Shown here: positions 43,680 through 58,520 of the stretch, one piece after another
Numbering within the stretch: the stretch's first letter is position 1
Layout of the letters: each line of letters begins with the position of its first letter
NCBI RefSeq assembly: GCF_024204645.1
Contig: NZ_CP100351.1
Location: forward strand, 620,001 to 684,000
DNA: 64,000 bases
Source: Desulfomicrobium sp. ZS1
Lineage (GTDB): Bacteria > Desulfobacterota > Desulfovibrionia > Desulfovibrionales > Desulfomicrobiaceae
Direction of reading: 5' to 3'
Notes under the pieces: model-generated
What the model was told of the DNA's origin: nothing
The model's input: the letters and a program-made list of their open reading frames with translations, nothing else
Databases searched by the model: none
Program-made: the position numbers and the translations under genes

Positions 43680-44456
43680 ATGCAGGAGAATTTAAAGAAT
43701 CAGAGCAGGGGAAAGCGAAAAGGAGTCGCCTCGCTCTTTGACGATTACGAGATCAAGGATCTTTTTCGCAGATACATCCAGCTCCTGATCGTGGTGGAGG
43801 TGCTTATCTTTCTGGTTTGCTGGGTCTACCAGCTCGGCATCGACGAGGTTGCGGTGACCGGCAAGCCCGTGGATATTCCTTTTCCCTGGAAGGCTTATTT
43901 TCTGGTTTCCTTTACGGCCCCGGTGGCCGTGACATTCCTGGTCGGGATAGTGGTCGTGGCCTTCAACTCTTTTCTTTTCGGACAGAAAAATGGGCCTGTA
44001 TTCAAGGAAACCTCCGCCACAGGAGCAGCGGGCAAGCTTGCCCAGGCGGCCAATTTCTGCTTCCAGCTCCCTTTTTTGCTGACCCTCCTGCTGCTGGGCA
44101 TATTTATAGGGATTGTGTATAATTTGGGCACGATCATGGATTACCTGGCCCGTTTTGGAGAGGCCGCATCCAAGGTCATTCTGATCGGGCTGGGTTGTGT
44201 CCTGGTGGCCGGAACCATTTTCGGGGTCGTGCGCATGATTCTCAACTATAAATTGCGCAAGAAGAACATGGAGTACGATTACAAGCGCGAGGTCATGGAC
44301 CGGCTGGGCATCGCCATTCTTGATGAGCGCACCATGATCGACAGTCAGGGGCAGATGGTCGGGCCGCGAAATATCGAAATATCCGCCGCCGATCAGGATG
44401 TGCTGCCGCCCGCGACGTCGGAGTCCGTGGTTTCTGAAAAGCCTGATTGCCGCTGA
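43680..44456 (+). CDS. Four-helix membrane protein, unknown function
   Basis: A 258-residue protein. A basic N-terminus (about 1-30) is followed by about four membrane helices near 32-50, 70-95, 128-148 and 162-185. A charged cytoplasmic tail of about 70 residues follows. A helix-loop-helix pattern with conserved family motifs was not recognised. ATG 43680 has GGAGATACG upstream. It is closed by the terminator at 44500-44523, so it is not cotranscribed with the tmc genes. It may still belong to the same respiratory neighbourhood (inference only). Confidence 0.75.
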   Translation: MQENLKNQSRGKRKGVASLFDDYEIKDLFRRYIQLLIVVEVLIFLVCWVYQLGIDEVAVTGKPVDIPFPWKAYFLVSFTAPVAVTFLVGIVVVAFNSFLFGQKNGPVFKETSATGAAGKLAQAANFCFQLPFLLTLLLLGIFIGIVYNLGTIMDYLARFGEAASKVILIGLGCVLVAGTIFGVVRMILNYKLRKKNMEYDYKREVMDRLGIAILDERTMIDSQGQMVGPRNIEISAADQDVLPPATSESVVSEKPDCR

Positions 44457-44523: not shown

Positions 44524-44900
44524 GCGTCTGGGGCTCAGCGTCCGGCATTTTTTGTGGTGAATGGCGGAAATGGGGCGGCTGAAAACATTCTTTTCCTGAA
44601 AATAACTTGCGGGCGTTGTGAGGATGTCCGGATGAAAAGGAGTGAATGTTTATATGCTATTGGGGGAATGTGTATTAAAAAGGTCCGAAATGTTTTGTCG
44701 ACTTATTGGGTCTGAATTGAAAATGATATTTACACATTGCCATTTCTAGGCTAGCCGGTTTGCAAGAAAATTTAGCTAATAAAGTTAGTCTGTGGCATGA
44801 TTTCAAAGCGTTGCCGACGTGGATTGCTTGTCTGCATTCACGCAAAGAAATCATGTTCATGTGAAGCTTTTGCGTAACCTAGTTGGTAAGGAGGGCGTGT

Positions 44901-46163
44901 ATGAGTGAGTATTCTGCCTGGGATTGGGGCATAGGCTCCAGAACCGTGGCCGACCTGTCAGAATGTGACTGTGACGTTGAATGGCGCGAGGAAAACCAGG
45001 CCAGCCCCGATGGGGAACAGGTAGCGGCCGTGGTCAAGACCGGTGACGGGGAGTTCAGTGTGTGCGTCAACAACACATGCTGGGAGCCGAGATACGAGCG
45101 CATCTGGTATCTGCGCTATTCTCCGGACGGACGCTTGGCCGGATTGGCCTGCGACGGCGACTGGACCATGTGCGTGGATGGCGAGCCGTGGGAAGAAACC
45201 TACGGATTCCTGTTCAACACCTTGTTTTCCAAAGATGGTTCGACCATCGCCTGTTGCGTTGCCGATTCCATGACCTACGGAATGGTGGTGGAGGGCGTTG
45301 CCTGGGAGAATCTTTATCCCAACGCCAATAATTTTGAACTCAGTGCCGACGGCAAGCGTAGCGCAGCCGTGGTTCAAACCGTTCCCTTGGGACAGGCTGA
45401 GGTCTTCAAGTTCAAAGAAGGGATCTACTCTGTAGCAGTGGATGGAACTCCTTGGGACGTGAGCTTCGTGAACGCCTGGACCCCGCGCTTCAATGCCGAC
45501 AGCAGTTCGGTTGCTGCTCAGGTTCGTCATACGCTCTTCGATTACACCATTGTCGTGGACGGCAAACCCTGGGCAGAGAGCTTCAACCAGGTCTGGGAAC
45601 CGCTTTTCCACCCCACCAAGAATTCGGTGGCGGCGCCGGTGCGCCTGGCCGGCAAGTGGGGCATGGCCCTGGACGGCAAGGTCATCTGGCAGCCTTCTTT
45701 CTTTCAGGTCTGGCAGCAGCAGTTCAGCCCTTCCGGCGACAAACTCGCCGCCATCGTCTGCCCCAAATACGGGTACTGGACATTGGCCGTGGATGGCACC
45801 CCGTGGAACACGACGTTTGGCGACATGGTCATGGACATGACTTTTAGTCCCGACGGAAAGCGTCTGGCCGCACTTGGCAAGCGGGACGGCAAGTGGACTG
45901 TATTTTCCGACGACAAGGCCTGGAATAGCAATTACGACATGTGTTATGCTCCGGTTTTTTCACCGGATAGCAATCATGTGGCCGCAAGAGTTGAAAAGAA
46001 GGGCCGTTTCACTATCGCGGTGGATGGCAAGGAATATGGCCAGGGTTTCGATCAATGCTTTGACCCGACGTTCAGTCCTGATGGAAGCCGGATTCTCATC
46101 CGTGCCATCGTGGACGGGAAGTACCAAAGAATTGTCGAGTCCGTAGCAAAAATCATCGGATAA
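44901..46163 (+). CDS. tmcD: TmcD-like tryptophan-rich repeat protein
   Basis: A 420-residue protein made of about eight repeats of roughly 45-50 residues. Each repeat has a strand pair like F(S)PDGKRLAA.V...G.W...VDG.PW, giving a WD40/propeller-type pattern. No signal peptide or membrane helix is seen, so it is probably cytoplasmic. In Desulfovibrio the corresponding TmcD is a subunit of the Tmc transmembrane electron-transfer complex with unknown function. It is followed 11 bases later by tmcC. The start is ATG 44901 with AAGGAGGGCGTGT upstream. Confidence 0.83.
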   Translation: MSEYSAWDWGIGSRTVADLSECDCDVEWREENQASPDGEQVAAVVKTGDGEFSVCVNNTCWEPRYERIWYLRYSPDGRLAGLACDGDWTMCVDGEPWEETYGFLFNTLFSKDGSTIACCVADSMTYGMVVEGVAWENLYPNANNFELSADGKRSAAVVQTVPLGQAEVFKFKEGIYSVAVDGTPWDVSFVNAWTPRFNADSSSVAAQVRHTLFDYTIVVDGKPWAESFNQVWEPLFHPTKNSVAAPVRLAGKWGMALDGKVIWQPSFFQVWQQQFSPSGDKLAAIVCPKYGYWTLAVDGTPWNTTFGDMVMDMTFSPDGKRLAALGKRDGKWTVFSDDKAWNSNYDMCYAPVFSPDSNHVAARVEKKGRFTIAVDGKEYGQGFDQCFDPTFSPDGSRILIRAIVDGKYQRIVESVAKIIG

Positions 46164-46174
46164 GGAGGCTAGAC

Positions 46175-46834
46175 ATGCAGGATGTCTATTTATTGGTATC
46201 TGGCCCCCTGGCTTGGGCTGCCTGGACTATTTTTGTACTTGGATCAATATACAAAATCTGGTCGACACTGAATACCGCAAGAAAAAAAGATCAAGTTTTG
46301 CTCAATTATGTCTCATTCAGATATGGAATGAGATCCATCATTAACTGGTCCATTCCGTTCAATACGGTCAACATGAGGTTGAACCCTGTTTTTACCGGAA
46401 TCGCGTTTTTCTTTCACATTGCTTTTTTTGTGCTGCTGATTTTTGTCTCCGCACATCAAATCATGATCGAGGAAGGGTTCGGCATCGGTTGGTTCACTAT
46501 TCCTGATTTTGTGGCCGACATTCTGGCCTTCGCGGTCATTGGCGCGTGCATCTTTTTTGCCGTGCGACGGGTGATGCGTCCTGAAGTGAGTTATGTTACC
46601 GACTGGACGGATTTTGCCCTGCTCGCCCTTGTGGCGGCGCCCTTTGTGACGGGAGTTCTGGCCTACCATCAGCTTGGCAATTACATGCTCATGGTCGTGC
46701 TGCACATGGTCTCGGCAGAGCTTTTGCTCGTGGCCATTCCCTTCACGCGTCTCAGTCATATGCTGCTGGCTCCCTTGACCAGGGCATATATCGGGTCTGA
46801 ATTCGGCATGGTGCGCCACGTCAAGGATTGGTAA
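46175..46834 (+). CDS. tmcC: TmcC, NarI-like cytochrome b subunit
   Basis: A 219-residue inner-membrane protein with about five helices, of the NarI/DsrM/HmcE type. Histidines that may ligate two b haems lie in FFFHIAFF and SAHQIM on one side and AYHQLG and VLHMVSAEL on the other. In Tmc it links periplasmic cytochrome TmcA with the cytoplasmic iron-sulfur subunit TmcB and the quinone pool (family knowledge). It is closely similar in design to HmcE in the same window. AAGGAGG precedes ATG 46175. Confidence 0.9.
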   Translation: MQDVYLLVSGPLAWAAWTIFVLGSIYKIWSTLNTARKKDQVLLNYVSFRYGMRSIINWSIPFNTVNMRLNPVFTGIAFFFHIAFFVLLIFVSAHQIMIEEGFGIGWFTIPDFVADILAFAVIGACIFFAVRRVMRPEVSYVTDWTDFALLALVAAPFVTGVLAYHQLGNYMLMVVLHMVSAELLLVAIPFTRLSHMLLAPLTRAYIGSEFGMVRHVKDW

Positions 46835-46849
46835 AAAGAGGAGAACGCT

Positions 46850-48166
46850 ATGAAAGAACGCGTCTGGATAAAAGATGAAGCTGTTGAACGGGGTGCTGAA
46901 AAGTTGACCCCGGAAAGGATCGAGAAGACGATTAATGCGGTTTTCGACAATGAAGCCGGGGCACGCCTCCAGGCTTATGTCGATACGTGCGCTCATTGCG
47001 GTTTGTGCTCGGATGCCTGCCATTTCTTTGTGTCCCGGGATCGCGATCCCCGCTTTTCCCCTGTGGGCAAGGTCAAGCAGACTATCTGGGAGATGCTCGA
47101 CAAGAAAGGCAAGGTTTCCGCAGAGTTTATGAAGCAGGCGATTCAGGTCGCTCAGACCGAATGCAATCTTTGCCGTCGCTGCGTACAGTATTGTCCCTTC
47201 GGAATCGACATCGCATATATGATGTCATTGGTGCGCCGCATTGGTCACAAATTGGAGATCACCCCCCTCTATATTCAGGATACGGCGCATTCCCATGCCG
47301 CCACCATGAATCAGATGTGGGTCAAAGACGACGAATGGATTGATGCCCTGCTCTGGCAGGAAGACGAGTTGCGTGATGAATTCCCGACAGGACGCATACC
47401 GCTGGAAAAGGAAGGGGCGGACATCATGTATTCCGTTATCGGGCCGGAGCCCAAATTCCGTACCCAGCTTATTTATCAGGCTGCGGCCATCATGAACGAG
47501 GCTGGCTGCAACTGGACCATGCCGGCGACTCCCGGCTGGGACAACTCCGATATGGCCATGTACACCGGCGATTCTGAGATGATGGGGCGCTTGAAGAGGA
47601 TGCATTTCGACACCGCGGCCAGGCTGCGCGTGAAGAAAATCGTCATGGGTGAGTGTGGGCATGCTTTCAGGTCCGTTTACGATACCGGCAACCGCGTGCT
47701 GGGTTGGCAGATGCCGCCCATTCAGGTCGTTCATGCTCTTGAATTTTATTGGGATCTTTTGAACGAAGGTAAAATAAAGGTCGCTAAAAAATTTGAGGAG
47801 CCGGTCACCTTCCATGACCCTTGCAACGTTGTGCGTGGGCGCGGGTTGCACGAAAAGGCGCGTGAGGTGGTGCGGGCTTTTTGTCCCAATTTCATCGAAA
47901 TGACTCCCAACAGGGAACACAATTATTGCTGCGCGGCAGGCGGCGGTGTCATCAACTGCGGTCCGCCATACAAGAACGCTCGCGTGGAAAGTAACAGGGT
48001 CAAGGCTGAGCAGTTACAACGCACCGGCGTCAAGGTCTGTATCGCACCATGTCATAACTGTCATGGTGGTCTTGAAGATATCATCCATGCGTACAAACTG
48101 GGCATCGAGCTCAAGTTCCTTGGGGAGATTATCTATGATTGCATGGAAAAACCAAATGCTGTCTAG
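46850..48166 (+). CDS. tmcB: TmcB, HdrD-like iron-sulfur subunit
   Basis: A 438-residue protein. Two [4Fe-4S] ferredoxin motifs lie at CAHCGLCSDAC and CNLCRRCVQYC. The C-terminal half has two CCG-type cysteine clusters (DPCNVV...YCCAAGGG and APCHNCHGG), as in the catalytic subunit HdrD of heterodisulfide reductase. No signal peptide, so it faces the cytoplasm. It takes electrons through TmcC; its natural electron partner is not established. It is paralogous to HmcF at 53733. AGAGGAG precedes ATG 46850. Confidence 0.92.
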   Translation: MKERVWIKDEAVERGAEKLTPERIEKTINAVFDNEAGARLQAYVDTCAHCGLCSDACHFFVSRDRDPRFSPVGKVKQTIWEMLDKKGKVSAEFMKQAIQVAQTECNLCRRCVQYCPFGIDIAYMMSLVRRIGHKLEITPLYIQDTAHSHAATMNQMWVKDDEWIDALLWQEDELRDEFPTGRIPLEKEGADIMYSVIGPEPKFRTQLIYQAAAIMNEAGCNWTMPATPGWDNSDMAMYTGDSEMMGRLKRMHFDTAARLRVKKIVMGECGHAFRSVYDTGNRVLGWQMPPIQVVHALEFYWDLLNEGKIKVAKKFEEPVTFHDPCNVVRGRGLHEKAREVVRAFCPNFIEMTPNREHNYCCAAGGGVINCGPPYKNARVESNRVKAEQLQRTGVKVCIAPCHNCHGGLEDIIHAYKLGIELKFLGEIIYDCMEKPNAV

Positions 48167-48175
48167 AGGTGAGCA

Positions 48176-48565
48176 ATGAGACATATACTATACAGATACT
48201 TCATTTTCTGCTCTGTCGTGCTCTGCGTCACGTTTTGCAGTATTTCGGCTTTTTCCCAGGACGACACATATTTGAAGGTAGATGCCTTCGGAGGATTGGA
48301 ACGTCCTATTAGTGCATTCGATCATGATGAACACAATGACATGGCTGCTCTGGAAGACTGTTCAGTTTGCCATCATGTCTACGAAGATGGAAAATTAGTC
48401 GAAGGCGAGAGTTCCGAAGATCAGGCTTGTGCTGATTGCCATACCCTCAAGGCGCAGGGCAGCCAGCCCGGCCTCATGATGGCCTACCACCAGCAGTGCA
48501 AGAGTTGCCACGTTGAATCAAAAAAAGGTCCCGTCGCTTGCGGCGAATGTCACGTAAAAAAATAA
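48176..48565 (+). CDS. tmcA: TmcA, acidic type-II tetrahaem cytochrome c3
   Basis: A 129-residue exported protein. A signal peptide covers about residues 1-27, ending in SAFS. Four haem-attachment sites follow: CSVCH, CADCH, CKSCH and CGECH, with several extra axial histidines. The mature part is acidic. TmcA takes electrons from type-I cytochrome c3 and hydrogenases in the periplasm and delivers them to the Tmc complex (literature on Desulfovibrio). GAGGTGAGCA precedes ATG 48176. Its own terminator follows at 48590-48622. Confidence 0.93.
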   Translation: MRHILYRYFIFCSVVLCVTFCSISAFSQDDTYLKVDAFGGLERPISAFDHDEHNDMAALEDCSVCHHVYEDGKLVEGESSEDQACADCHTLKAQGSQPGLMMAYHQQCKSCHVESKKGPVACGECHVKK

Positions 48566-48622: not shown

Positions 48623-48943
48623 GCGAAAATTTTATTATCCTGCTGTTCATCCTGCCGCCATTCCAAAGTGATCTGCATTTTGAAGCAAATTGCTTTAGAT
48701 TAAATTTTTCCATAAAAACAAGTATGTTGAGTTGATTTTTTTTGACCGTTTTCGGCCAAGAGAGCCCAGATATTTGAAATCTCAAGTGATTGTGAAAAAA
48801 TGGATTATCTCTTGACGGGTTAGTTGATATTCTATACCTCCGAGGTCGGAATAAATCATACCCGAATGGTCTGCTTACTCTCAATTTTTTTAGTGGGCTT
48901 TATGTGCAGACGCACACGGTTTGATTTTTTTCCGTTTCAAGGA

Positions 48944-48979
48944 AGGTGCAGGGGGGCGGAGCCTCCGCGCGAGGGAGGT
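48944..48979. repeat. REP-like GC hairpin in the hmcA leader
   Basis: GGTGCAGGGGGG(C)GGAGCCTCCGCGCGAGGGAGG forms a GC-rich hairpin about 45 bases ahead of hmcA. The same opening (GGTGCAGGGGG) occurs at each copy of the array at 37613-38500. Confidence 0.5.
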
Positions 48980-49022
48980 TTCCGGAATTTTCCGGAGCGG
49001 ATTTCAACAAAGGAATTTTCAC

Positions 49023-50567
49023 ATGGAGAAGGGAAGACCAATGCTGCGATGGGTGGGAATCCTGTGCGTAAGCATGGCTGTGGCTGGATTCGGTCTGAAC
49101 GCTCTTGGGGGAAAACAGGAATCGATCGAAACGAAAGCACTGGGCGCGGATCTCATATCCATCGACACGCTCAAGAAGTTCGGTGATCTCGATTATCCTG
49201 TGGTCCGGTTCGAGCATGACAAGCACACCAAGGCTGTGGAGGGGAAGTGCGAATCCTGCCATACTGTGACCGGCAACACGGTTACGGCCAAGTTCAAGCG
49301 TCAGGAAGATACGAATGCCGCGGAAATCAAGGCCATTTATCACGACAACTGCATCGCGTGCCATGACGACACGTCCACGGCCGGCAAGAAAAGCGGACCC
49401 GGCAGCGAGCAGTGCCGGACCTGTCACGCGGGGCCTGCGGATTCGTCACGGACGTTGATCTCGTTCGATAAATCCCTGCATTACCGCCACTCGTCGTCGA
49501 AGATGGTTCTTCCTGCCCCCGGGCAGAAGGAGAACTGCTCCAAATGCCACTCCCAGGACAAGCCTGAAGCGCGCAATCTCGCTTTTGCCGAGAACAAGGA
49601 TCAGGCACATGAAAAATGTCTGTCCTGTCATATGGAGATCGGTAAGGCGCAACAGCCTACCGGCCCTGTGGAGTGCGCCGGCTGTCATGACGCCACTGTC
49701 CGCGCCGGATTCAAGAAGGTCGCGGATGCGCCACGGCTTGAAGCCGGGCAGTCCGATTACGCTCTGCTTATGGCCGCCACGGCTCAGGCCGGAACCGAGC
49801 CCAAGCTGGTCAGCGCCGTGCCTTTCAATCACAAGCTGCATGAAGAAAAGAACGAGAACTGCTCGGTCTGCCATCATAACGCTTCGTCCAAGGGCGTGAT
49901 CCCCTGTTCGCAGTGCCACACGTCATTGGGCAAGGAAGAGGGCGGCTTCATAACCACCGAGCAGGCCATGCACCGCGTGACCGCGCAGACCAGTTGCGTG
50001 GGGTGTCATGCCCAGGCGCAGGCCAAGCCGGAATGCGCCGGATGCCACACCTTCATGGGTCGAACCGGTCAGAACACAGATGCCAGTTGCGTCAAATGCC
50101 ATGTCGACATCACGCCCGGAGCTGAGCTGATCAATGACAGGAACGCCCGCAGCAACACTGCGGCGATGCTCATGAACACCCGCATCAAGAGCGACCCTGA
50201 GATCAAGGTCGGCGAGATTCCCGAGATCGTCGAGATCGGCGTCCTGGCCAACGAGTACCAGGTCAGCAAATTCCCGCATCGCAAGATCGTGCAGAAGATC
50301 ATGGATGGCATGAAGGACGACAGCATGGCTGCGTACTTTCACTCCAGCCCGAACGCTGTCTGTTCCGGTTGTCATCACAACAGTCCAGCTTCAGCCAATC
50401 CTCCCAAATGCGTCAGTTGTCATGGCAAGGTCGCGAGCGCGCAGGATGGAGCCAAGCCAGACCTCAAGACCGCCTATCACCAGCAATGCATCGGTTGTCA
50501 TAGCGAAATGGGCATCCAGAAGCCGGCGGCCACTGCCTGCGCGGAATGTCATGCCGTAAAGCAATAA
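49023..50567 (+). CDS. hmcA: HmcA, high-molecular-weight multihaem cytochrome c (15 haem sites)
   Basis: A 514-residue exported cytochrome. An N-terminal signal (MEKGRPMLRWVGILCVSM...) is followed by 15 CxxCH haem sites: CESCH, CIACH, CRTCH, CSKCH, CLSCH, CAGCH, CSVCH, CSQCH, CVGCH, CAGCH, CVKCH, CSGCH, CVSCH, CIGCH and CAECH. The Hildenborough HmcA has 16 haems; here one site between the fourth and fifth is missing and that segment is short. HmcA sits in the periplasm and passes electrons from cytochrome c3 into the membrane complex. The start is ATG 49023, which aligns with the known N-terminus and has AAAGGAA ahead; ATG 49041 is an alternative. Confidence 0.94.
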   Translation: MEKGRPMLRWVGILCVSMAVAGFGLNALGGKQESIETKALGADLISIDTLKKFGDLDYPVVRFEHDKHTKAVEGKCESCHTVTGNTVTAKFKRQEDTNAAEIKAIYHDNCIACHDDTSTAGKKSGPGSEQCRTCHAGPADSSRTLISFDKSLHYRHSSSKMVLPAPGQKENCSKCHSQDKPEARNLAFAENKDQAHEKCLSCHMEIGKAQQPTGPVECAGCHDATVRAGFKKVADAPRLEAGQSDYALLMAATAQAGTEPKLVSAVPFNHKLHEEKNENCSVCHHNASSKGVIPCSQCHTSLGKEEGGFITTEQAMHRVTAQTSCVGCHAQAQAKPECAGCHTFMGRTGQNTDASCVKCHVDITPGAELINDRNARSNTAAMLMNTRIKSDPEIKVGEIPEIVEIGVLANEYQVSKFPHRKIVQKIMDGMKDDSMAAYFHSSPNAVCSGCHHNSPASANPPKCVSCHGKVASAQDGAKPDLKTAYHQQCIGCHSEMGIQKPAATACAECHAVKQ

Positions 50568-50601
50568 CCTGCCCGGAAGGTCGCAATAACGAGGAGCTAC
50601 T

Positions 50602-51660
50602 ATGAAACGCAGAAAATTCATTGGCATGCTGGCTGGCGCAGGAGCCTGTATGGCGGCGTCAACGGCCACAGCCGGTGGAACACATCATTTTAAGGGTTAT
50701 CCCGAAAGCTTCGGGGTGCTCTTTGACAGCACCAAATGCATCGGCTGCAGAAAATGCGAAGCCGCTTGCAACAAGGTCAACGAACTGCCCGCACAGCCGG
50801 TGCCCTTCGATGACCTGGCAGTATTGGACTCAAGACGGCGTACGCACCACGACACCTTCACCGTGGTCAACAAATACTCCGTCAACGACAAGCCGGTGTA
50901 CCGCAAGCAGCAGTGCAATCATTGCCTGGAGCCTGCCTGCGCTTCGGCCTGTTTTGTCGGCGCCTTTGTCAAGGACAAGACCGGGGCCGTCAGCCACGAC
51001 GCTTCCAAGTGCGTGGGCTGCCGCTACTGCATGATCGCCTGTCCGTTTGAAATTCCCACGTACGAATATCACGATCCCATCACTCCTCGGGTACGCAAGT
51101 GCACCATGTGCCAGCCGCGGATCGAAGAGGGAAAGCTGCCTGGGTGTGTCGAAGACTGCCCCAAGGGCGCACTGGTCTTCGGTCGTCGCGAGGACCTGTT
51201 GAACATTGCCCGCGAACGTATCCGCAAGCATCCAAGCATCTACATCGACCATATCTATGGCGAGCGTGAAATGGGTGGAACGAGCTGGATGTACATCTCC
51301 GGCGTGCCGTTTGAAAAAATCGGCATGCGTGAGGATCTGGGCGTCACCCCTGCTCCGGAACTCACTTCCGGCGCACTTTCCCTTGTTCCGGCCGTTGTGG
51401 GCCTGTGGCCCATGTTTTTGACCGGTGCCTATGCCCTGACCAAGCGTCGGGAAAAGATTGCCGAAGAAGAGCAGCACCATGCCGTGGCAGAGGCCGTGGC
51501 CGAAGCGCAGTCTGAGGCGGCAAAGAAGGCGAAAGCGGCCATGGAAAAGGCGGAACGCGACAAGCAGGCCGCCATTGATCGTGAAGTGAAAAAAGCGCTC
51601 AAGGAAGCGGAAGAGGCCCGGCTCAAAGCCGAAACTCCCGCTGATCCGAGCGAGCAATAA
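50602..51660 (+). CDS. hmcB: HmcB, four-cluster ferredoxin subunit with membrane anchor
   Basis: A 352-residue protein. The N-terminus KRRKFIGML followed by a hydrophobic stretch resembles a Tat signal. Four cysteine sets suit four [4Fe-4S] clusters: [35 protein letters not shown] and CTMC...CVEDC. A membrane helix lies at about 253-275. The last 75 residues are charged, Ala/Lys/Glu-rich and strongly coiled-coil-like ([20 protein letters not shown]). It links HmcA to the NrfD-type subunit HmcC. GAGGAGC precedes ATG 50602. Confidence 0.92.
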
Positions 51661-51672
51661 GGAGGAGTGTTG

Positions 51673-52842
51673 ATGTCTCACCACACCACACCAAGCAAGA
51701 CATTCTGGACTCCGGCGAACATCCTGACTGCCGTCATCCTGGTCATTGGCCTGGTTCTGACCGTGAAGCGGTTCACCATGGGCATCGGCTCGGTGACCAA
51801 TCTGACCGACGACAATCCATGGGGCATCTGGATCGGTTTCGACCTGCTCTGCGGCGTCGCTCTGGCCGCCGGCGGCTACACGACCTCCGCAGCCGTGTAC
51901 CTTTTCGGCATGAAAAAATATCACTCCGCGGTGCGTCCGGCCATCACCACCGCATTCCTGGGCTACGCCTTCGTGGTCTTTGCCCTGCTCTACGATCTGG
52001 GCCGCTACTACCGGTTGCCCTATCCGCTGACCATCTATCCCGGCCCGACCTCCTTTCTTTTCGAAGTAGGTCTGTGCGTGGCCCTGTACCTGACCGTTCT
52101 GGCCATCGAATTCTCGCCTGCGCTGTGGGAAACCCTGCGCTGGAAGAAGCTGCGCTTCTGGGCGCATAGCCTGACCCTGGTGCTGACCATCTTCGGCGTT
52201 GTCCTGTCCACCCTGCACCAGTCTTCGCTGGGCGGGCTGTACCTGCTTGCACCTTCCAAGCTGCATCCGTTGTGGTACTCGCCGTATCTGGCGCTGTTCT
52301 TCTTCGTTTCGAGCATCCCCGCCGGTCTCTCCATGGTCATTTTCGAAGGGGGGCTGTCGCACACGTTCCTGCATCACAAGATGGACGAAACCCACATCAA
52401 GGAAGCTCCCGGCGTAACCCTTGGTTTCGCCAAGGCCGCGGCGGTGGTCCTCTTCACCTACTTCAACCTGAAGTGGATCGGCGTGGCCCTGGACAACAAC
52501 TGGCACTACCTCTCGACGGGTTGGGGCGCATGGTTCCTGGTCGAAATGCTGGGCTTCGTGCTCGTGCCTTGCCTGATGTATGCCGTTGCGGCCCGCGAAA
52601 AGAGCCAGAAGCTGGCCTTCTGGGCCTCCATCGTCACGGTGCTCGGCATCGTGCTGAACAGGCTCAACATCTCGCTGGTGGCCTTCAACTGGCAGCTTCC
52701 GGCCGAACTACGCTACGTCCCTTCCTGGGAAGAGATCATGATCACCGTATTCATCGTCACCCTTGAAATCACCGTGTTGCGGATCTGCCTGAACAAGCTG
52801 CCGATCCTGCATGAACACCCTGAGTTCAAGGGCGCGCACTAA
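51673..52842 (+). CDS. hmcC: HmcC, NrfD/PsrC-type membrane subunit
   Basis: A 390-residue inner-membrane protein with about ten helices, of the NrfD/PsrC quinone-interacting family. The helices at about 16-35, 55-78, 85-107 and onward are separated by short loops; ENPWGIW-like DDNPWGIWIGFD lies near the first periplasmic loop. It anchors HmcB and likely contacts the quinone pool. GGAGGAGTGTTG precedes ATG 51673. The hmcD gene starts 13 bases after its stop. Confidence 0.92.
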   Translation: MSHHTTPSKTFWTPANILTAVILVIGLVLTVKRFTMGIGSVTNLTDDNPWGIWIGFDLLCGVALAAGGYTTSAAVYLFGMKKYHSAVRPAITTAFLGYAFVVFALLYDLGRYYRLPYPLTIYPGPTSFLFEVGLCVALYLTVLAIEFSPALWETLRWKKLRFWAHSLTLVLTIFGVVLSTLHQSSLGGLYLLAPSKLHPLWYSPYLALFFFVSSIPAGLSMVIFEGGLSHTFLHHKMDETHIKEAPGVTLGFAKAAAVVLFTYFNLKWIGVALDNNWHYLSTGWGAWFLVEMLGFVLVPCLMYAVAAREKSQKLAFWASIVTVLGIVLNRLNISLVAFNWQLPAELRYVPSWEEIMITVFIVTLEITVLRICLNKLPILHEHPEFKGAH

Positions 52843-52855
52843 AGGAGGCAGGAAA

Positions 52856-53005
52856 ATGGAATTCATGACACTTCATGACTTCATGTTCTGGACCAAGGGC
52901 ATGGCCTATGTAGGAATGGGCGTTGGTCTGGTGGCATTCGTGGCCTTCTGGCTGTTCTTGTCCGAAAGGGACGAGGACAAGTTCGCCGACACGGAAGAAG
53001 AATAG
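52856..53005 (+). CDS. hmcD: HmcD, small single-helix subunit
   Basis: A 49-residue protein with one membrane helix (about 14-35) and an acidic C-terminus (SERDEDKFADTEEE). Its size and place between hmcC and hmcE match HmcD of the Hmc complex, whose function is unknown. AAAGGAGG precedes ATG 52856. Confidence 0.85.
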   Translation: MEFMTLHDFMFWTKGMAYVGMGVGLVAFVAFWLFLSERDEDKFADTEEE

Positions 53006-53040
53006 GCTCGGGCCTTATCCGACCAATGAAGGAGTAATCT

Positions 53041-53715
53041 ATGTATGAGATATTGACTGGTCCGCTGCTCTGGATTGCCTTTGCGGTTTTCTTTGTCGGC
53101 CTGGCCGCCCGGGTGGTGCTGTACTTCCTCGGGCTCGACTGGAGGCTGGACCGCGTGGCCTACAAGCCGCACATGGCCTACGGACTCAAAGGCGCCTTCA
53201 GATCCGTGTACCGTTGGCTTTTGCCTTTCGGGACATACAGCTGGCGCGCTAAACCCATATTCACGGTAATGTTTTTCGCCTTTCATATCGGCCTTGTCAT
53301 TGTTCCTCTGTTCCTGGAGGGACACGCGGTCATGATTCGCAACGGTCTTGGCATCAACTGGCCGGCCATGCCGCAGATTCTGGCCGATGTGCTCGCCATT
53401 GCGGCGCTGGCCGGCGGTCTTGGCATCGCCGTGCGCCGTCTGGTGCTGCCCGAAGTGCGCATTCTGACCGATTTCAAGGATATCATGCTGCTGGTGCTGA
53501 TTCTGACGCTGTTGGCCTCCGGCATCATCGCCACCTATCATACGGCCAACTATTCGTTCTGGATCACCCTGCACGTGCTGTGCGGCGTGATTGTGCTGCT
53601 GACCGCTCCCTTCACCAAGCTGTCTCATATTGCGCTGTTCTTTTGCACGCGCATTCAGCTCGGCATGGATTTCGGGATCAAGCGCGGCGGAATGAAGTCC
53701 AATTTTGACTGGTAA
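53041..53715 (+). CDS. hmcE: HmcE, NarI-like cytochrome b subunit
   Basis: A 224-residue inner-membrane protein of the NarI/DsrM type. Helices lie at about 5-30, 78-98, 115-135, 145-165 and 172-195. Haem-b ligand candidates are the histidines in [22 protein letters not shown] and LHVLCG. It parallels TmcC at 46175, the same fold and motif order. AAGGAGTAATCT precedes ATG 53041. It passes electrons between HmcC/quinone and the cytoplasmic HmcF (family knowledge). Confidence 0.92.
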
Positions 53716-53732: not shown

Positions 53733-55115
53733 ATGCCCGAAGGTACAATTTGTAATAAGAGACCCGTTGCCTCCCGAGAGGACCTTGACGCCCTCTTGGC
53801 CGACAGCAACGGCAAGAAATACTATGCGGAAATGGAAGAACTGGATGTGGATGCCGAGAAGCTCTGGGCAACCATTCAGAAGACCATGAAGTCACGAACA
53901 AAAACCTGGCTGGACATCTGCGCCCATTGCGGACTCTGCGCCGACAGCTGTTTCCTGTACAGCGTGAACGGGCGCGATCCCAAGCAGGTGCCCTCGTACA
54001 AGATCCAGTCCACCCTGGGCGAGATCGTCAAGAAGAAGGGTAACGTGACCAACGAGTTCATGCGCATGTGCATGGACACGGCCTGGTCCAAGTGCACCTG
54101 CTGCAATCGGTGCGGCTCTTTCTGCCCCTACGGCATCGATATGGGCGTCATGTTCGGCTACCTGCGCGGACTGCTCCATTCCCAAGGTTTCGTGCCGTGG
54201 GAACTGAAAATCGGTTCCGGCATGCACCGTCTTTTCCGCGCCCAGATGGACGTCACCGTCGAAGAATTCGTGGATACCTGCGAATGGATGGTCGACGAGG
54301 CCCTGGAAGAATGGCCTTGCCTGGAAATCCCGGTGGACAAGGAAGATGCCGACATCGTCTACATGATCAACGCCCGCGAGGCCAAGCATTACCCTGAAGA
54401 CATCGTCGAGGCGGCCATCCTCTTCCACGTGGCCGGGGAGAATTGGACCATGCCCTCCGAGGGCTGGGAAATGACCAGCCTCTCCATGTTCGCCGGTGAC
54501 TGGGAGGCCTGCAAGATGCAGGTTGATACCGTGTATGGTGCCATGGAGCGTCTGCGTCCAAAACGCATGGTAGCGACGGAATGCGGCCATGCTTACCGTG
54601 CCACGGTCATTGAAGGCCCGTACTGGGCCGGACGACCGGATGGAAAACCACCTGTAGAATGCTTGCACTACGTCGAATGGGTGGCCGAAGCACTGGAGAC
54701 TGGCAAGCTCAAGATTGATCCGACCAAGAAGATAAAAGAACCGGTCACATTGCAAGACTCATGCAACTATGTTCGTAATGCAGGACTTCGTGATTGCGGC
54801 CGAATCATCATGAAACACATTGCGGAAGACTTCCGTGAGATGGCTCCCAACAAGGAGCACAACTATTGTTGTGGCGGCGGTGGCGGCTTCAATGGTATCG
54901 GACGCTATCGGAAACAGCGCAACGTCGCGCTGAAGATGAAGCGTGAGCAGATTTTGGCTACGGGAGCGAAATTCGTCATTGCCCCATGTCATAACTGCTG
55001 GGATGCCATCCGCGATTTGGAAGAGGAGTTCGAGATCGGCATCCGCTGGAGCTTCCTGAAGCCGCTTCTGATCAAGATGCTGGTTGTTCCGGAGCATCTC
55101 TTGCCGCAGGAATAA
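53733..55115 (+). CDS. hmcF: HmcF, HdrD-like cytoplasmic iron-sulfur subunit
   Basis: A 460-residue cytoplasmic protein. Two [4Fe-4S] motifs are [11 protein letters not shown] and [14 protein letters not shown]-type clusters are DSCNYV...YCCGGGGG and APCHNCWD. It resembles TmcB (46850) and the HdrD subunit of heterodisulfide reductase. In Hmc it is the cytoplasmic end of the transmembrane electron path. AGAGGAATACGAT precedes ATG 53733. It ends the Hmc structural genes. Confidence 0.93.
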
Positions 55116-55181: not shown

Positions 55182-56093
55182 ATGTTTACAAAGATTCTGT
55201 TCGCCACCTCCGGCTCTCCCTGTTGTGATGCCGCAGCGCGTGTCGCGTTTGATTTGGCAGCGCGTTATAATGCCAAACTTTTTGTGCACCATGTGCTCGG
55301 AGTGCCCAGCCGGGGTTTCAGTCAGGTTGTGGTCGATGTGCGCACGGGTGAGAAAGTCGAGTTGGACGAAGATTACATAATGTGGGTCAAGGATGAGCTT
55401 AAGAACACCTATGACCGTCAGTTGAAGAGCGGAGTGGATTGCGAGATCGAGACCTCCGTGGGCATCCCGCATCGCGAAGTGCTGCGCAAGGCCCGCCAGG
55501 AAGACGTAGATCTGATCGTCATGGGTGCGAGCACCACCGGCTGCGAGGCCGATGCCGATGCCTATCAGCGCCATTTTGCCGGTTCGACCCTGCAGCGGGT
55601 GGCCAAGGCTTCCAAGGCTCCGGTGCTGGTGGTCAATCGTCCCGTGGCTTCATTTTGGGGCGGATTCACCAACATCGTCTTTGGCGCGGATTTTTCCAAG
55701 GCGTCCGAACATGCGTTCAAGTTCGCCCTCAATACCGCCAAGGAGCTTAATGCCAAATTGCATGTTTTTCATGCCATCGACATCGGCAGTACCCATAGCC
55801 TCATTTCTCAGAAGCAGCTCGATGACCAGATGATCGAGGCCCGGGATCGGATGCGTCGCAAGTACCTGATCCAGGCCGGTGATTTCAAGAATATCACGGC
55901 CGATATCTGGGAAGGCATTCCGTATGTCGAAATCGTCAAGTACGCACGTGAGAAGCAGGCCGATCTCATTGTCATGGCCCACCATTCCAAGGACGTCAGC
56001 GACGAGGACTCCGCGTTTGGGCATACATTGGAGCAGGTGTTACTGCGTGCGACGTGTCCCGTGGCATCGGTCAATCGTGCGGATAAAATCTAA
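55182..56093 (+). CDS. Universal stress protein with two Usp domains
   Basis: A 303-residue cytoplasmic protein with tandem UspA domains (about 1-153 and 160-303). The first domain opens KILFATSGSP, has DLIVMGAS and ends APVLVVN. The second has IVFGADFS, DLIVMAHHS and CPVASVN. The ATP-binding GxxG pattern is irregular in both domains: GASTTG in the first with an unusually long insert, and no glycine at the first position in the second. ATP binding is therefore not assured. It follows the Hmc structural genes and precedes the hmc regulators, so it is probably part of the same regulon. GGGAGTTGACAT precedes ATG 55182. Confidence 0.9.
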   Translation: MFTKILFATSGSPCCDAAARVAFDLAARYNAKLFVHHVLGVPSRGFSQVVVDVRTGEKVELDEDYIMWVKDELKNTYDRQLKSGVDCEIETSVGIPHREVLRKARQEDVDLIVMGASTTGCEADADAYQRHFAGSTLQRVAKASKAPVLVVNRPVASFWGGFTNIVFGADFSKASEHAFKFALNTAKELNAKLHVFHAIDIGSTHSLISQKQLDDQMIEARDRMRRKYLIQAGDFKNITADIWEGIPYVEIVKYAREKQADLIVMAHHSKDVSDEDSAFGHTLEQVLLRATCPVASVNRADKI

Positions 56094-56125: not shown

Positions 56126-56482
56126 ATGATGGGCAAGAAGATTCTGATCATTGATGACGATCCCAACATCGTCACGTATCTGGAAGACATTTTTCAGGAC
56201 GCAGGCTACGCAACCTGCAAAGCTTCCGATGGGGCCGACGCGCTGGCCGTCGTGAAAGAGGAAAAGCCTGATTTGATCACGTTGGATCTTGAGATGCCGA
56301 AGGAATGGGGCCCGCGTTTTTACCGGGAGCTGAGCCAGGACGACGAATGCGGCAATATCCCCGTGATCGTCATCAGTGGTCTCTCCGGGAACAAATATGC
56401 AATTCAGAAAGCCGTGGCTTCTTTCACCAAGCCGTTTGATCGCGAAGACCTCCTGAAAGTCATCAAGGAAACAATTGGTTAG
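56126..56482 (+). CDS. rrf1: Rrf1-like single-domain response regulator
   Basis: A 118-residue receiver. The acidic pair lies at IIDDD near residue 9, the phosphoacceptor is the aspartate in ITLDLEMP, and a lysine lies in FTKPFD. No output domain. In Desulfovibrio vulgaris a lone receiver named Rrf1 follows hmcF, and it occurs with Rrf2. The order here (hmc, usp, rrf1, kinase, rrf2) fits that. The kinase at 56545 is the likely partner. GGGGGTGT precedes ATG 56126. Confidence 0.88.
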   Translation: MMGKKILIIDDDPNIVTYLEDIFQDAGYATCKASDGADALAVVKEEKPDLITLDLEMPKEWGPRFYRELSQDDECGNIPVIVISGLSGNKYAIQKAVASFTKPFDREDLLKVIKETIG

Positions 56483-56499: not shown

Positions 56500-56544
56500 A
56501 AAACCCTTGCCCGGGCGCATATGTAAAACGAGCAAGGGTTTTTT
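56500..56544 (+). terminator. Terminator abutting the start of the PAS histidine kinase
   Basis: An 11-bp stem AAAACCCTTGC (56500-56510) / GCAAGGGTTTT (56532-56542), loop of 21 bases, and Ts to 56544. The GTG start of the next gene is at 56545. Confidence 0.75.
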
Positions 56545-58080
56545 GTGGCAAAACATATGCATGACATCGTCATTTCCGAACCCATTGTGATCATAACCCA
56601 GGACCCTGAGCACGGCAGGGTCCTGGCGCATATTCTGAATGAATATGGGTATCAATCTTCCAACTGTGATTATGACGACGCTCTTGTCACCGTAGGCGTA
56701 GTGCGGCCGCGGCTGGCGGTTCTGGGGATCTGCGATTGCCAGCTCGGACAGGAATTGCTGCGGCAGATTCGTGTCGGTTATCCGGAAGTGCGTAGTATCG
56801 TTTTGGTTCCGGATGGCGAATATGACTTGGGTTTGGCTTTTCTGGCTGATGGCGCTTCGGATTTTTTGTATAAACCCGTCTCGGAGAGAGCTCTGCGCAT
56901 AACTCTTGACCGGGCTCTGACCCTGCTTGACCTGCAGCAGGAAAATGGACTCCTGAAGGAAAAGAACAAAATTCTCGGATCCAGCCATCAGCTTTGCCGC
57001 CAACTCTTCGATGAAGTGCCGTGCTATATTTCGGTGCAGAACAGGGACCGTCGCATTGTGCGGGCAAACAGGCAGTTCAAGCTCGATTTCGGTTCGTGCC
57101 TGGGCGAGCGCTGCTATGAAATCTACAAGCACCGCACACACCCGTGTCCGCAATGTCCCGTGGAGGAGACCTTCCGCGACGGCATGGTGCACCAGACCGA
57201 AGAGGTGGTCACCACGCGCGGCGGCCAGCAAAAGATCGTGCTGACCCTGACCGCTCCGCTGCGTGACGAGAAGGGCGAGATTCATGAAGTCATGGAACTT
57301 GCCACGGACATTTCGCAGATCCGCGAGTTGCAGGGCCGCCTGACCTCGCTCGGGCTCTTCATCGGCTCCATCTCGCACGGCGTGCGCGGCATGCTGACCG
57401 CGCTCGATGGTGGACTGTACCGGCTTGAAAAGGGTATCGTGAACAAGGATCTGGAGCTTGTCGCCAACGGCGCCGAGCGCGTCAAGCTGATGATATCCCG
57501 GATTCGTAATTCCGTTCTGGAGATGCTCTATTATTCCAAGGATCGGGACCTTAATATTCAGCTCATCGATGTGCACAGTTTTGGCGACGGGGTGGCCAAT
57601 TTTGTCGAGCCTAAAGCCATCAAGCACGGTGTGCGATTTCAAAAGGAATTTTATGGCGAGCTGGGGCGATTTGAAATCGATCCGGAAGTCATCTCCGCCG
57701 GCCTGGTCAATATCCTCGAGAACGCAGTGGACGCGTGCATCGAAGATGAATCCACAGATCGCCATAGTGTCTCCTTCCTGATCGAAGGCGGCAAGGATTC
57801 TGTTTCGTTCATTATCCGGGACAATGGACCTGGAATGGACCGTGCTACTCAGGAGAAAATGTTTTCCTTGTTTTTCTCTTCCAAGGGTAGCAAAGGTACT
57901 GGGCTTGGACTTTATATAGCCAATGATGTCGTTCATCAGCACGGTGGGCGGATCCATGTCGATTCGACGCCGGGTGAAGGGACTGAATTTCGGGTGGATT
58001 TGCCCCGAAAGCATGTACGATTGGAAAATCGGGCCAATGGTGCCCAAAACGAATCCGGCAAGTCCGGCGGCAATGGCTAG
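56545..58080 (+). CDS. Soluble histidine kinase with pseudo-receiver and cysteine-bearing PAS domain
   Basis: Up to 511 residues, no membrane helix. Residues 1-125 resemble a receiver, but the phosphoacceptor region reads AVLGICDCQLG, with glycine where aspartate is expected. A PAS-like domain follows (about 150-260) and contains CLGERCYEIYK...PCPQCP, four cysteines that could bind a metal or cluster. The phosphoacceptor histidine is in GSISHGVRGML, a diverged H-box. The HATPase domain has NILENAVDAC, DNGPGMDRAT and GTGLGLYIAND. The GTG at 56545 lies on the terminator; ATG 56557 or 56561 are alternatives. It lies between rrf1 and rrf2. Confidence 0.85.
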   Translation: MAKHMHDIVISEPIVIITQDPEHGRVLAHILNEYGYQSSNCDYDDALVTVGVVRPRLAVLGICDCQLGQELLRQIRVGYPEVRSIVLVPDGEYDLGLAFLADGASDFLYKPVSERALRITLDRALTLLDLQQENGLLKEKNKILGSSHQLCRQLFDEVPCYISVQNRDRRIVRANRQFKLDFGSCLGERCYEIYKHRTHPCPQCPVEETFRDGMVHQTEEVVTTRGGQQKIVLTLTAPLRDEKGEIHEVMELATDISQIRELQGRLTSLGLFIGSISHGVRGMLTALDGGLYRLEKGIVNKDLELVANGAERVKLMISRIRNSVLEMLYYSKDRDLNIQLIDVHSFGDGVANFVEPKAIKHGVRFQKEFYGELGRFEIDPEVISAGLVNILENAVDACIEDESTDRHSVSFLIEGGKDSVSFIIRDNGPGMDRATQEKMFSLFFSSKGSKGTGLGLYIANDVVHQHGGRIHVDSTPGEGTEFRVDLPRKHVRLENRANGAQNESGKSGGNG

Positions 58081-58103
58081 ATCTTGAAAATTTGGAGGAC
58101 CGC

Positions 58104-58520
58104 ATGCGTTTGACCACGCGAAGCCGGTATGGAACTCGATTGCTGCTCGATATTGCCTTGAATCAGGACAAGGGTTGGGTCAATACGACGGATATTGCCA
58201 GGCGTCAGAAAATTTCACAGAAATACATCGAAAAATTGATCACGGGTCTTCGGCGTGGCGGGCTCATCGAGAGCAAACGCGGTCCTTTTGGCGGTCACAA
58301 GCTGGCCAAGCCTGCCATGGATATCACTGTTGGGGACGTGGTGCGGTCCTTGGAAGAAAAAGTGGCCCTGACCCAGTGCGCCGAAGGGGAGCCCATCTGC
58401 GGGGAGTGTTCTCTGGCTGGCGAATGCGTGACGCAGTTTGTCTGGATCGAAGCCAGCAATGTGCTCATGCAGACTCTTGACTCCTACCGCCTAGGGGATC
58501 TGATCGCCCGCAAGGGATAG
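58104..58520 (+). CDS. rrf2: Rrf2 family transcriptional regulator
   Basis: A 138-residue regulator, the family founder being the hmc repressor Rrf2 of Desulfovibrio vulgaris. A winged helix covers about 1-75 (RLTTRSRYGTRLLLDIAL...QKYIEKLITGL). Four cysteines at CAEGEPICGECSLAGEC are placed as in the iron-sulfur binding loop of IscR and NsrR. It probably represses the hmc operon and may sense redox state through a cluster (inference from the family). GGAGGACCGC precedes ATG 58104. A strong terminator follows. Confidence 0.92.
   Translation: MRLTTRSRYGTRLLLDIALNQDKGWVNTTDIARRQKISQKYIEKLITGLRRGGLIESKRGPFGGHKLAKPAMDITVGDVVRSLEEKVALTQCAEGEPICGECSLAGECVTQFVWIEASNVLMQTLDSYRLGDLIARKG

Follow-up and report, generated by a model that had tools for sequence, protein, structure and literature searches.

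The hmc gene cluster of Desulfomicrobium sp. ZS1 is followed by a gene in the position of rrf1, whose product is a free receiver, and this raises the questions of which kinase serves such a receiver and on what the receiver acts. We approached them through the window, by which we mean the whole 64,000-nucleotide stretch of DNA analyzed here, and through related loci in other genomes. On the plus strand of the window the genes run in the order tmcD-C-B-A, hmcA-B-C-E-F, usp, receiver, kinase and rrf2:

44883..48565, plus strand: tmcD, tmcC, tmcB and tmcA, upstream of hmc (NF045725, NF045723, NF045724 and NF045722, over cut-off)
48921..53715, plus strand: hmcA, hmcB, hmcC and hmcE (NF045713, NF045715, NF045714 and NF045716, over cut-off)
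53733..55115, plus strand: HmcF, an HdrD/DsrK-like Fe-S subunit and the proposed target of the receiver (NF045711, 929.7 bits)
55182..56093, plus strand: double universal-stress protein that belongs to the conserved cluster (PF00582, 153.6 bits; synteny)
56126..56482, plus strand: free receiver in the Rrf1 position, with intact Asp, Ser and Lys and no output domain (NF045717, or DVU0259, family)
56500..56544, plus strand: conserved, terminator-like hairpin of 11 pairs with a T-run, between rrf1 and the kinase gene (covariation and folds)
56545..58080, plus strand: sensor histidine kinase with a degenerate receiver-like part, PAS, DHp and HATPase (ORF of 511 aa from GTG; probable start at ATG 56557)
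58092..58520, plus strand: Rrf2 regulator with C96, C103, C106 and C112 (PF02082, 130.3 bits)

The free receiver scores 198.5 bits against the NF045717 cut-off of 160, which places it in that family, and is the one receiver of this genome to exceed it; the Rrf2 regulator likewise belongs to its family, for which the PF02082 cut-off is 30 bits. Among the 14 loci of the window's family (L153-L166), 12 show the order hmc-usp-receiver-kinase-rrf2 and two, on short contigs, show usp-receiver-kinase-rrf2, with tmc upstream on the same strand in 8 of the 14. The same hmc-usp-receiver-kinase-rrf2 order, without tmc upstream, is found in many Desulfobacterales contigs. The window has tmcDCBA directly upstream of hmc, and L161 and L164 have tmc on the opposite strand. 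Upstream of tmcD there is also an ORF of 258 aa with hydrophobic stretches (43680-44456), which occupies the same place in 8 loci (L153-L160).

The kinase gene and its domains

An earlier note on this DNA had placed a kinase gene between rrf1 and rrf2, and the ORF, its domains and both of its neighbors bear this out. The parts of the kinase are as follows:

56584..56940, plus strand: degenerate receiver, about residues 14-132 (sub-cut-off PF00072 and fold match)
56992..57330, plus strand: cysteine PAS domain, residues 150-262, with C151, C160, C185, C190, C201 and C204 (PAS_4, model and conservation)
57376..57378, plus strand: codon of His278, presumed to be phospho-accepting, in GSISHGVRGMLTALDGG (conserved in aligned relatives)
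57700..58011, plus strand: HATPase_c domain, residues 386-489 (PF02518, 79.8 bits)

The ATG equivalent to 56557 is retained in all 14 relatives compared, and the GTG recurs at the matching place in only some of them, being out of frame in L158; a kinase of 507 aa is therefore likelier than one of 511. With a DHp histidine and a HATPase_c domain, the protein is a two-component sensor histidine kinase and hence a member of a known broad class; Pfam also recognizes its PAS_4 domain (50.4 bits) and returns no HisKA-type model at E 0.1. We compared it with two collections of relatives, namely 80 recovered by means of peptide seeds (contig set) and 102 distinct ones recovered with a profile (order-wide set), and in the latter His278 is a histidine in 102/102. 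An AlphaFold model of the full-length kinase, built from 111 sequences, has a mean pLDDT of 90.2. The window genome holds no second close kinase (the next match scores 91 bits versus 1153), and a search for plasmid-borne relatives at E 1e-60 returned none.

The N-terminal part is recognizable as a receiver chiefly by its fold. Response_reg (PF00072) reaches 24.6 bits at residues 14-119, under its cut-off of 30.2, and residues 11-131 of the model adopt the receiver fold (e.g., YycF receiver 2zwm, Z 20.6, rmsd 1.5, 118 aligned). This fold is retained without the full residue set of a receiver (Asp, acidic pair, Thr/Ser and Lys): Gly61 stands at the phosphoacceptor position, just as the earlier note had read it, Q19-D20 at the acidic pair and V88 at the Thr/Ser, with K110 kept. 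At the phosphoacceptor position the order-wide set has Asp in 81 rows, Gly in 14, Asn in one and gaps in 6 (Asp in 81/96 rows with a residue), and all 14 Gly rows are the loci L153-L166 of the window's family. The 80 rows of the contig set have Asp in 47, Gly in 10, Asn in 3, one each of Ser, Ala and Glu, and gaps in 17 (Asp in 47/63 rows with a residue), with 8 of the 10 Gly rows being the window's kin and the others L021 and L024. Hence, among the aligned sequences the receiver Asp is kept by most relatives that have the domain and is lost in the window's lineage and some others. Gly61 as an exclusive trait of the window's family is ruled out both by the Gly of L021 and L024 and by L242 and L244, which are window-family kinases with the Asp kept.

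The tmc-locus kinases of the order set differ from the window kinase in being longer and in having retained the receiver Asp, and the kinases of loci with a receiver fused to an HmcF-like protein (see below) have no N-terminal receiver. We predict that the kinase's own receiver is a regulatory domain whose phosphorylation site has been lost here. A receiver at the N-terminus is likewise seen in the REC-kinase LvrB of Leptospira (8vc9; Z 21.4 over 308 aligned residues at rmsd 35.3, and hence a match domain by domain only), from which the window kinase differs in having a cysteine PAS between the receiver and the kinase core and in the loss of the receiver Asp.

The hairpin that separates the kinase gene from that of the free receiver shows compensatory changes in 8 of its 11 pairs among 13 sequences; its absence from the terminator scan goes with that scan's loop limit of 8. 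It probably acts as a terminator or attenuator and so holds the level of the kinase below that of the receiver. RNA-seq of D. hydrothermalis delineates a co-regulated block made up of hmcA-F, UspA, a single CheY-like receiver and a gene without known function; the table of that study names no gene beyond the receiver (PMC4162548). A block ending at the receiver fits a stop of transcription after the receiver, the link being one across species, by analogy with the window locus.

The cysteines of the PAS domain

The earlier note had described a four-cysteine PAS domain, taking the four from the motifs CLGERC (C185/C190) and PCPQC (C201/C204). Both motifs are present, and it is the membership of the set that changes. 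In the seed-derived contig set, C190, C201 and C204 are each found in 80/80 and C185 in 10/80, and in the order-wide set the former three are found in 98/99 rows with a residue (3 further rows are gapped), C160 in 93/99 and C185 in 17/99. The sole exception for C190, C201 and C204 is L252, a weak match of 157 bits. These counts point to a conserved set of C160-C190-C201-C204, of which three are essentially invariant, with C160 nearly always present in the place that had been given to C185. The absence of the conserved cysteines from orthologs, which the earlier note had named as counting against its idea, is thus seen for C185 only. A four-cysteine site of C185, C190, C201 and C204 is ruled out by the rarity of C185. 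Strict invariance of C160 is also rejected: it stands at 80/80 in the seed set, where one of the search seeds (FDEVPCYI) contains this very residue, and at 93/99 in the profile-found set. His196 as a universal fourth ligand is excluded too, being a histidine in 55/80 and 67/99. Five loci (L028, L033, L039, L042 and L043) have Gly in place of His196 and an extra Cys two residues on, possibly a swap of ligands.

The PAS domain is confidently modeled (pLDDT 91.7), and fold searches with it return ordinary PAS folds. A phmmer search for a solved relative of the cysteine PAS gave only nuclear-receptor zinc fingers, none of them with an E-value better than 0.25. The three-cysteine pattern C-x(8-12)-C-x2-C occurs in 10/18 PAS matches of the window genome, the kinase included (loci L268-L285), and 12/13 aligned kinases from the more distant loci have a tandem of two such PAS domains, the first of them without an equivalent of C160 in two. 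The three-cysteine PAS is therefore a widespread subtype of the domain as read from these sequences and not special to this kinase. NreB-type Fe-S PAS kinases have four PAS cysteines with the spacing CX2C-X11-CX2C. The window kinase is cytoplasmic and has clustered PAS cysteines as they do, and differs from them in its spacing, C190-X10-C201-X2-C204 with C160 far upstream.

Sensing of redox or metal state by the cysteine PAS is plausible, and the case that the earlier note had made for it is weakened by how common the three-cysteine pattern is elsewhere in the same genome. That the cysteines serve instead as a structural zinc site or pair up in a reversible disulfide, and hold no Fe-S or redox cofactor, is a reading to which we give serious weight, only a little short of calling it probable. 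A set in which three cysteines hardly ever vary and the fourth is less constant would suit it, as would the recurrence of the pattern in many PAS domains of the window genome. The frequent company of redox complexes speaks for a cofactor, though it does not decide the matter, and so does the presence among the closest folds of the FAD-binding PAS of NifL (2gj3, Z 13.6, rmsd 2.6, 107 aligned), but many PAS domains with other ligands lie equally among the nearest folds.

Kinase and receiver across genomes

In a survey of 150 genomes of the order (NF045717-like receiver at E 1e-30, kinase at E 1e-70), we found the receiver in 80, the kinase in 82 and both in 79, with the receiver only in G147 and the kinase only in G002, G023 and G038. 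An NF045717-like receiver lies within 3 kb upstream of the kinase and on the same strand in 94/104 kinase hits; counted by distinct kinases, the receiver adjoins the kinase in 94/98 of the order set and 75/83 of the contig set, these two sets overlapping. The link that the earlier note drew from the kinase to Rrf1 and Hmc is in keeping with this, the Rrf1-type receiver being the kinase's conserved neighbor and the kinase standing beside hmc. The relatives of the receiver have the phosphorylation Asp intact in 175/176 and the Lys in 176/176. Judged from these gene neighborhoods, this soluble sensor kinase is most likely the cognate partner of the Rrf1-type receiver.

The pair is found at Hmc, Tmc or a third type of locus. 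Upstream of the kinase there is HmcF in 43 and TmcB in 13 of the order set (n = 98), and HmcF in 36, TmcB in 10 and an HmcF-like gene in 16 of the contig set (n = 83). At the third type, seen for 17/98 kinases of the order set, one or more rrf2 genes lie upstream of the receiver and kinase; L193 (10076-11731), the sole locus of this type scanned, has a CoA-disulfide-reductase-like protein with a rhodanese domain in between. The window kinase has same-family counterparts beside receivers of the NF045717 (DVU0259) family at tmc loci. The kinase neighboring the DVU0259-family receiver at tmc bears the locus number DVU0258.

The kinase is missing from nine hmcA-F-rrf1-rrf2 loci (L259-L267), and all nine genomes hold it elsewhere, seven of them in the arrangement tmc-usp-receiver-kinase and the other two as usp-receiver-receiver-kinase with tmc nearby on the opposite strand. 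The tmc-locus kinase is thus the natural candidate for the missing kinase of Rrf1 in these genomes. As the receivers encoded there share 41-51% identity with that of the window, the orthology of the window receiver with Rrf1 of D. vulgaris is positional only, and the assignment of a kinase to Rrf1 at the kinase-less loci rests on genome content. The window genes resemble rrf1 and rrf2 of D. vulgaris in lying after hmcF and in encoding a receiver without an output domain and an Rrf2 family regulator; unlike the window, the hmc locus of D. vulgaris has rrf1, rrf2 and DVU_0528 and no kinase among the genes named in a figure legend (PMC10924467).

The Fe-S subunit as a candidate target of the receiver

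The most distant kinase loci come, by their record titles, from Gemmatimonadota, Acidobacteria, Planctomycetota, Kapaibacterium and some Deltaproteobacteria. Here the kinase follows a gene for an HmcF/TmcB/DsrK-like Fe-S protein, often with an HmcE-like gene before it. In loci fetched for the kinase and receiver, 16/192 HdrD-like ORFs carry a C-terminal receiver and adjoin the kinase, whose presence beside these 16 fusions is by construction, given how the loci were fetched. Both the L075 and the L068 protein match CCG, Fer4 and Response_reg of Pfam, and the receiver of the L075 fusion (8573-10396) resembles NF045717 (74 bits). The L075 fusion is like HmcF, TmcB and DsrK in scoring 331, 305 and 253 bits, respectively, and unlike them in carrying a receiver and in staying below those curated cut-offs. 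Across 13 aligned fusion receivers, the acidic pair, Asp and Lys never vary. A fusion is present somewhere in each of the 17 genomes from which the distant kinase loci come; in the L070 locus itself none was seen, and the gene before the kinase encodes an unfused DsrK-like protein.

We also searched without reference to the kinase, using a profile of the Fe-S-receiver protein on 297 genomes from each of the phyla of L086 (Acidobacteria) and L066 (Deltaproteobacteria). At E 1e-180, 15 and 17 genomes matched, and 30 loci were fetched, the two starting loci being left out; as the profile includes the receiver, it favors fused proteins and does not favor the kinase. The receiver is fused in 17/30 and not fused in 13/30. 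Downstream of 14 of the 17 fusions lies a cysteine-PAS kinase of 552-774 bits on the same strand, adjacent in 13 and placed after another kinase and receiver in L303; of the other three, L304 and L314 are stretches that end too early, and L315 has only a weaker kinase of 339 bits on the other strand. Among the 13 unfused loci, six from the phylum of L066 have a free receiver and then a kinase of 412-447 bits, with a weak universal-stress hit between them in four, five from the L086 phylum lack any kinase of the family, and two (L322 and L323) are stretches that end early. Across these loci the receiver thus comes in two forms, as a separate gene next to that for the Fe-S subunit or as one of the subunit's own domains. 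In Gemmatimonadota, the phylum of L075, a fusion was found at E 1e-120 in 2/121 genomes, one being the starting genome and the other matching only to position 449, so that the fusion is rare there.

The module of HmcF, receiver and kinase is hence present in the window as hmcF-usp-rrf1-kinase and in fused form elsewhere. Comparative evidence of this kind suggests HmcF and TmcB as the target of the receiver, an idea absent from the earlier note. In the open-licence literature, outside which most subscription papers lie, we found no description of a kinase-Rrf1 pairing or of a receiver-HmcF fusion.

From the domains, residues, neighborhoods, fusions and hairpin we infer a scheme of phosphotransfer, cofactor, docking and gating, which as a whole we hold to be somewhat probable. 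The PAS domain, with three or four cysteines (C160, C190, C201 and C204), would sense the redox or metal state of the cytoplasm and set the autophosphorylation of His278, from which the phosphate would pass to the Asp of Rrf1. Since Rrf1 has no DNA-binding part, Rrf1-P would most likely dock on the cytoplasmic HdrD/DsrK-like Fe-S subunit (HmcF, or TmcB at tmc loci) and there gate the flow of electrons between the membrane module and the reduction of sulfite in the cytoplasm. A separate transcriptional arm, probably Fe-S dependent, would be formed by Rrf2. Direct gating is what the fusion and the neighborhood would suggest, both being evidence of association and not of mechanism.

The cysteine triad of the Rrf2 family has a recognized role, and C96, C106 and C112 are found in 46/46 kinase-adjacent Rrf2 proteins. 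A gene for rrf2 follows the kinase in 28/98 (order set) and 25/83 (contig set), and no Rrf2 gene is tagged beside 53/98 and 51/83 kinases, some of them on short contigs; Rrf2 is by these counts a less constant neighbor of the kinase than the receiver. In D. vulgaris, rrf1 and rrf2 are referred to as regulators of hmc expression (Keon 1997, cited in PMC10924467). This cited role and the position of rrf2 after the kinase make a transcriptional output possible, in which Rrf1-P would alter hmc expression by modulating Rrf2 or a different regulator, the adjacency to HmcF reflecting the operon only. The rrf2 gene directly 3′ of the kinase in the window and in the loci just counted, and that upstream of receiver and kinase at the third locus type, would agree with such an output. 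We nevertheless consider it unlikely, as the partner to which the receiver is fused, in 16 ORFs and in 17/30 further loci, is an Fe-S subunit and no DNA-binding protein, and over half of the kinases have no Rrf2 tagged beside them. That the kinase signals chiefly to other receivers (a second receiver, or nearby hybrid kinases in Desulfovibrionales), with Rrf1 as a sink or bystander, draws on the two receivers before the kinase at many loci and the further receiver after it at most fused loci, but is very improbable given that each of the 14 loci L153-L166 has a single Rrf1-type receiver ahead of the kinase and that nearly all receiver relatives have their phosphorylation residues intact.

Returning to the gating of HmcF and TmcB by Rrf1-P, we put forward tentatively, as something not quite probable, the wider view that Hmc, Tmc and related HdrD-like complexes have their own dedicated two-component system, with a cysteine-PAS kinase that would read the redox state of the cytoplasm and with a receiver that would be no transcription factor but a docking or built-in regulatory subunit of the Fe-S protein, its phosphorylation directly opening or closing electron flow across the membrane. 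Sulfate reducers would then possess a direct switch for the choice among the parallel electron routes of Hmc, Tmc and Dsr, and a respiratory complex with a phosphorylated receiver among its subunits would be an unusual case; the fusion in other lineages suggests that cells may switch an Hmc-type complex by phosphorylation. In D. alaskensis, Tmc matters for hydrogen oxidation, and Hmc was detrimental on hydrogen and important for survival of oxygen exposure, the effects varying from one medium to another (PMC4215793). DsrC- and DsrK-like genes are present as well in the fused locus L075.
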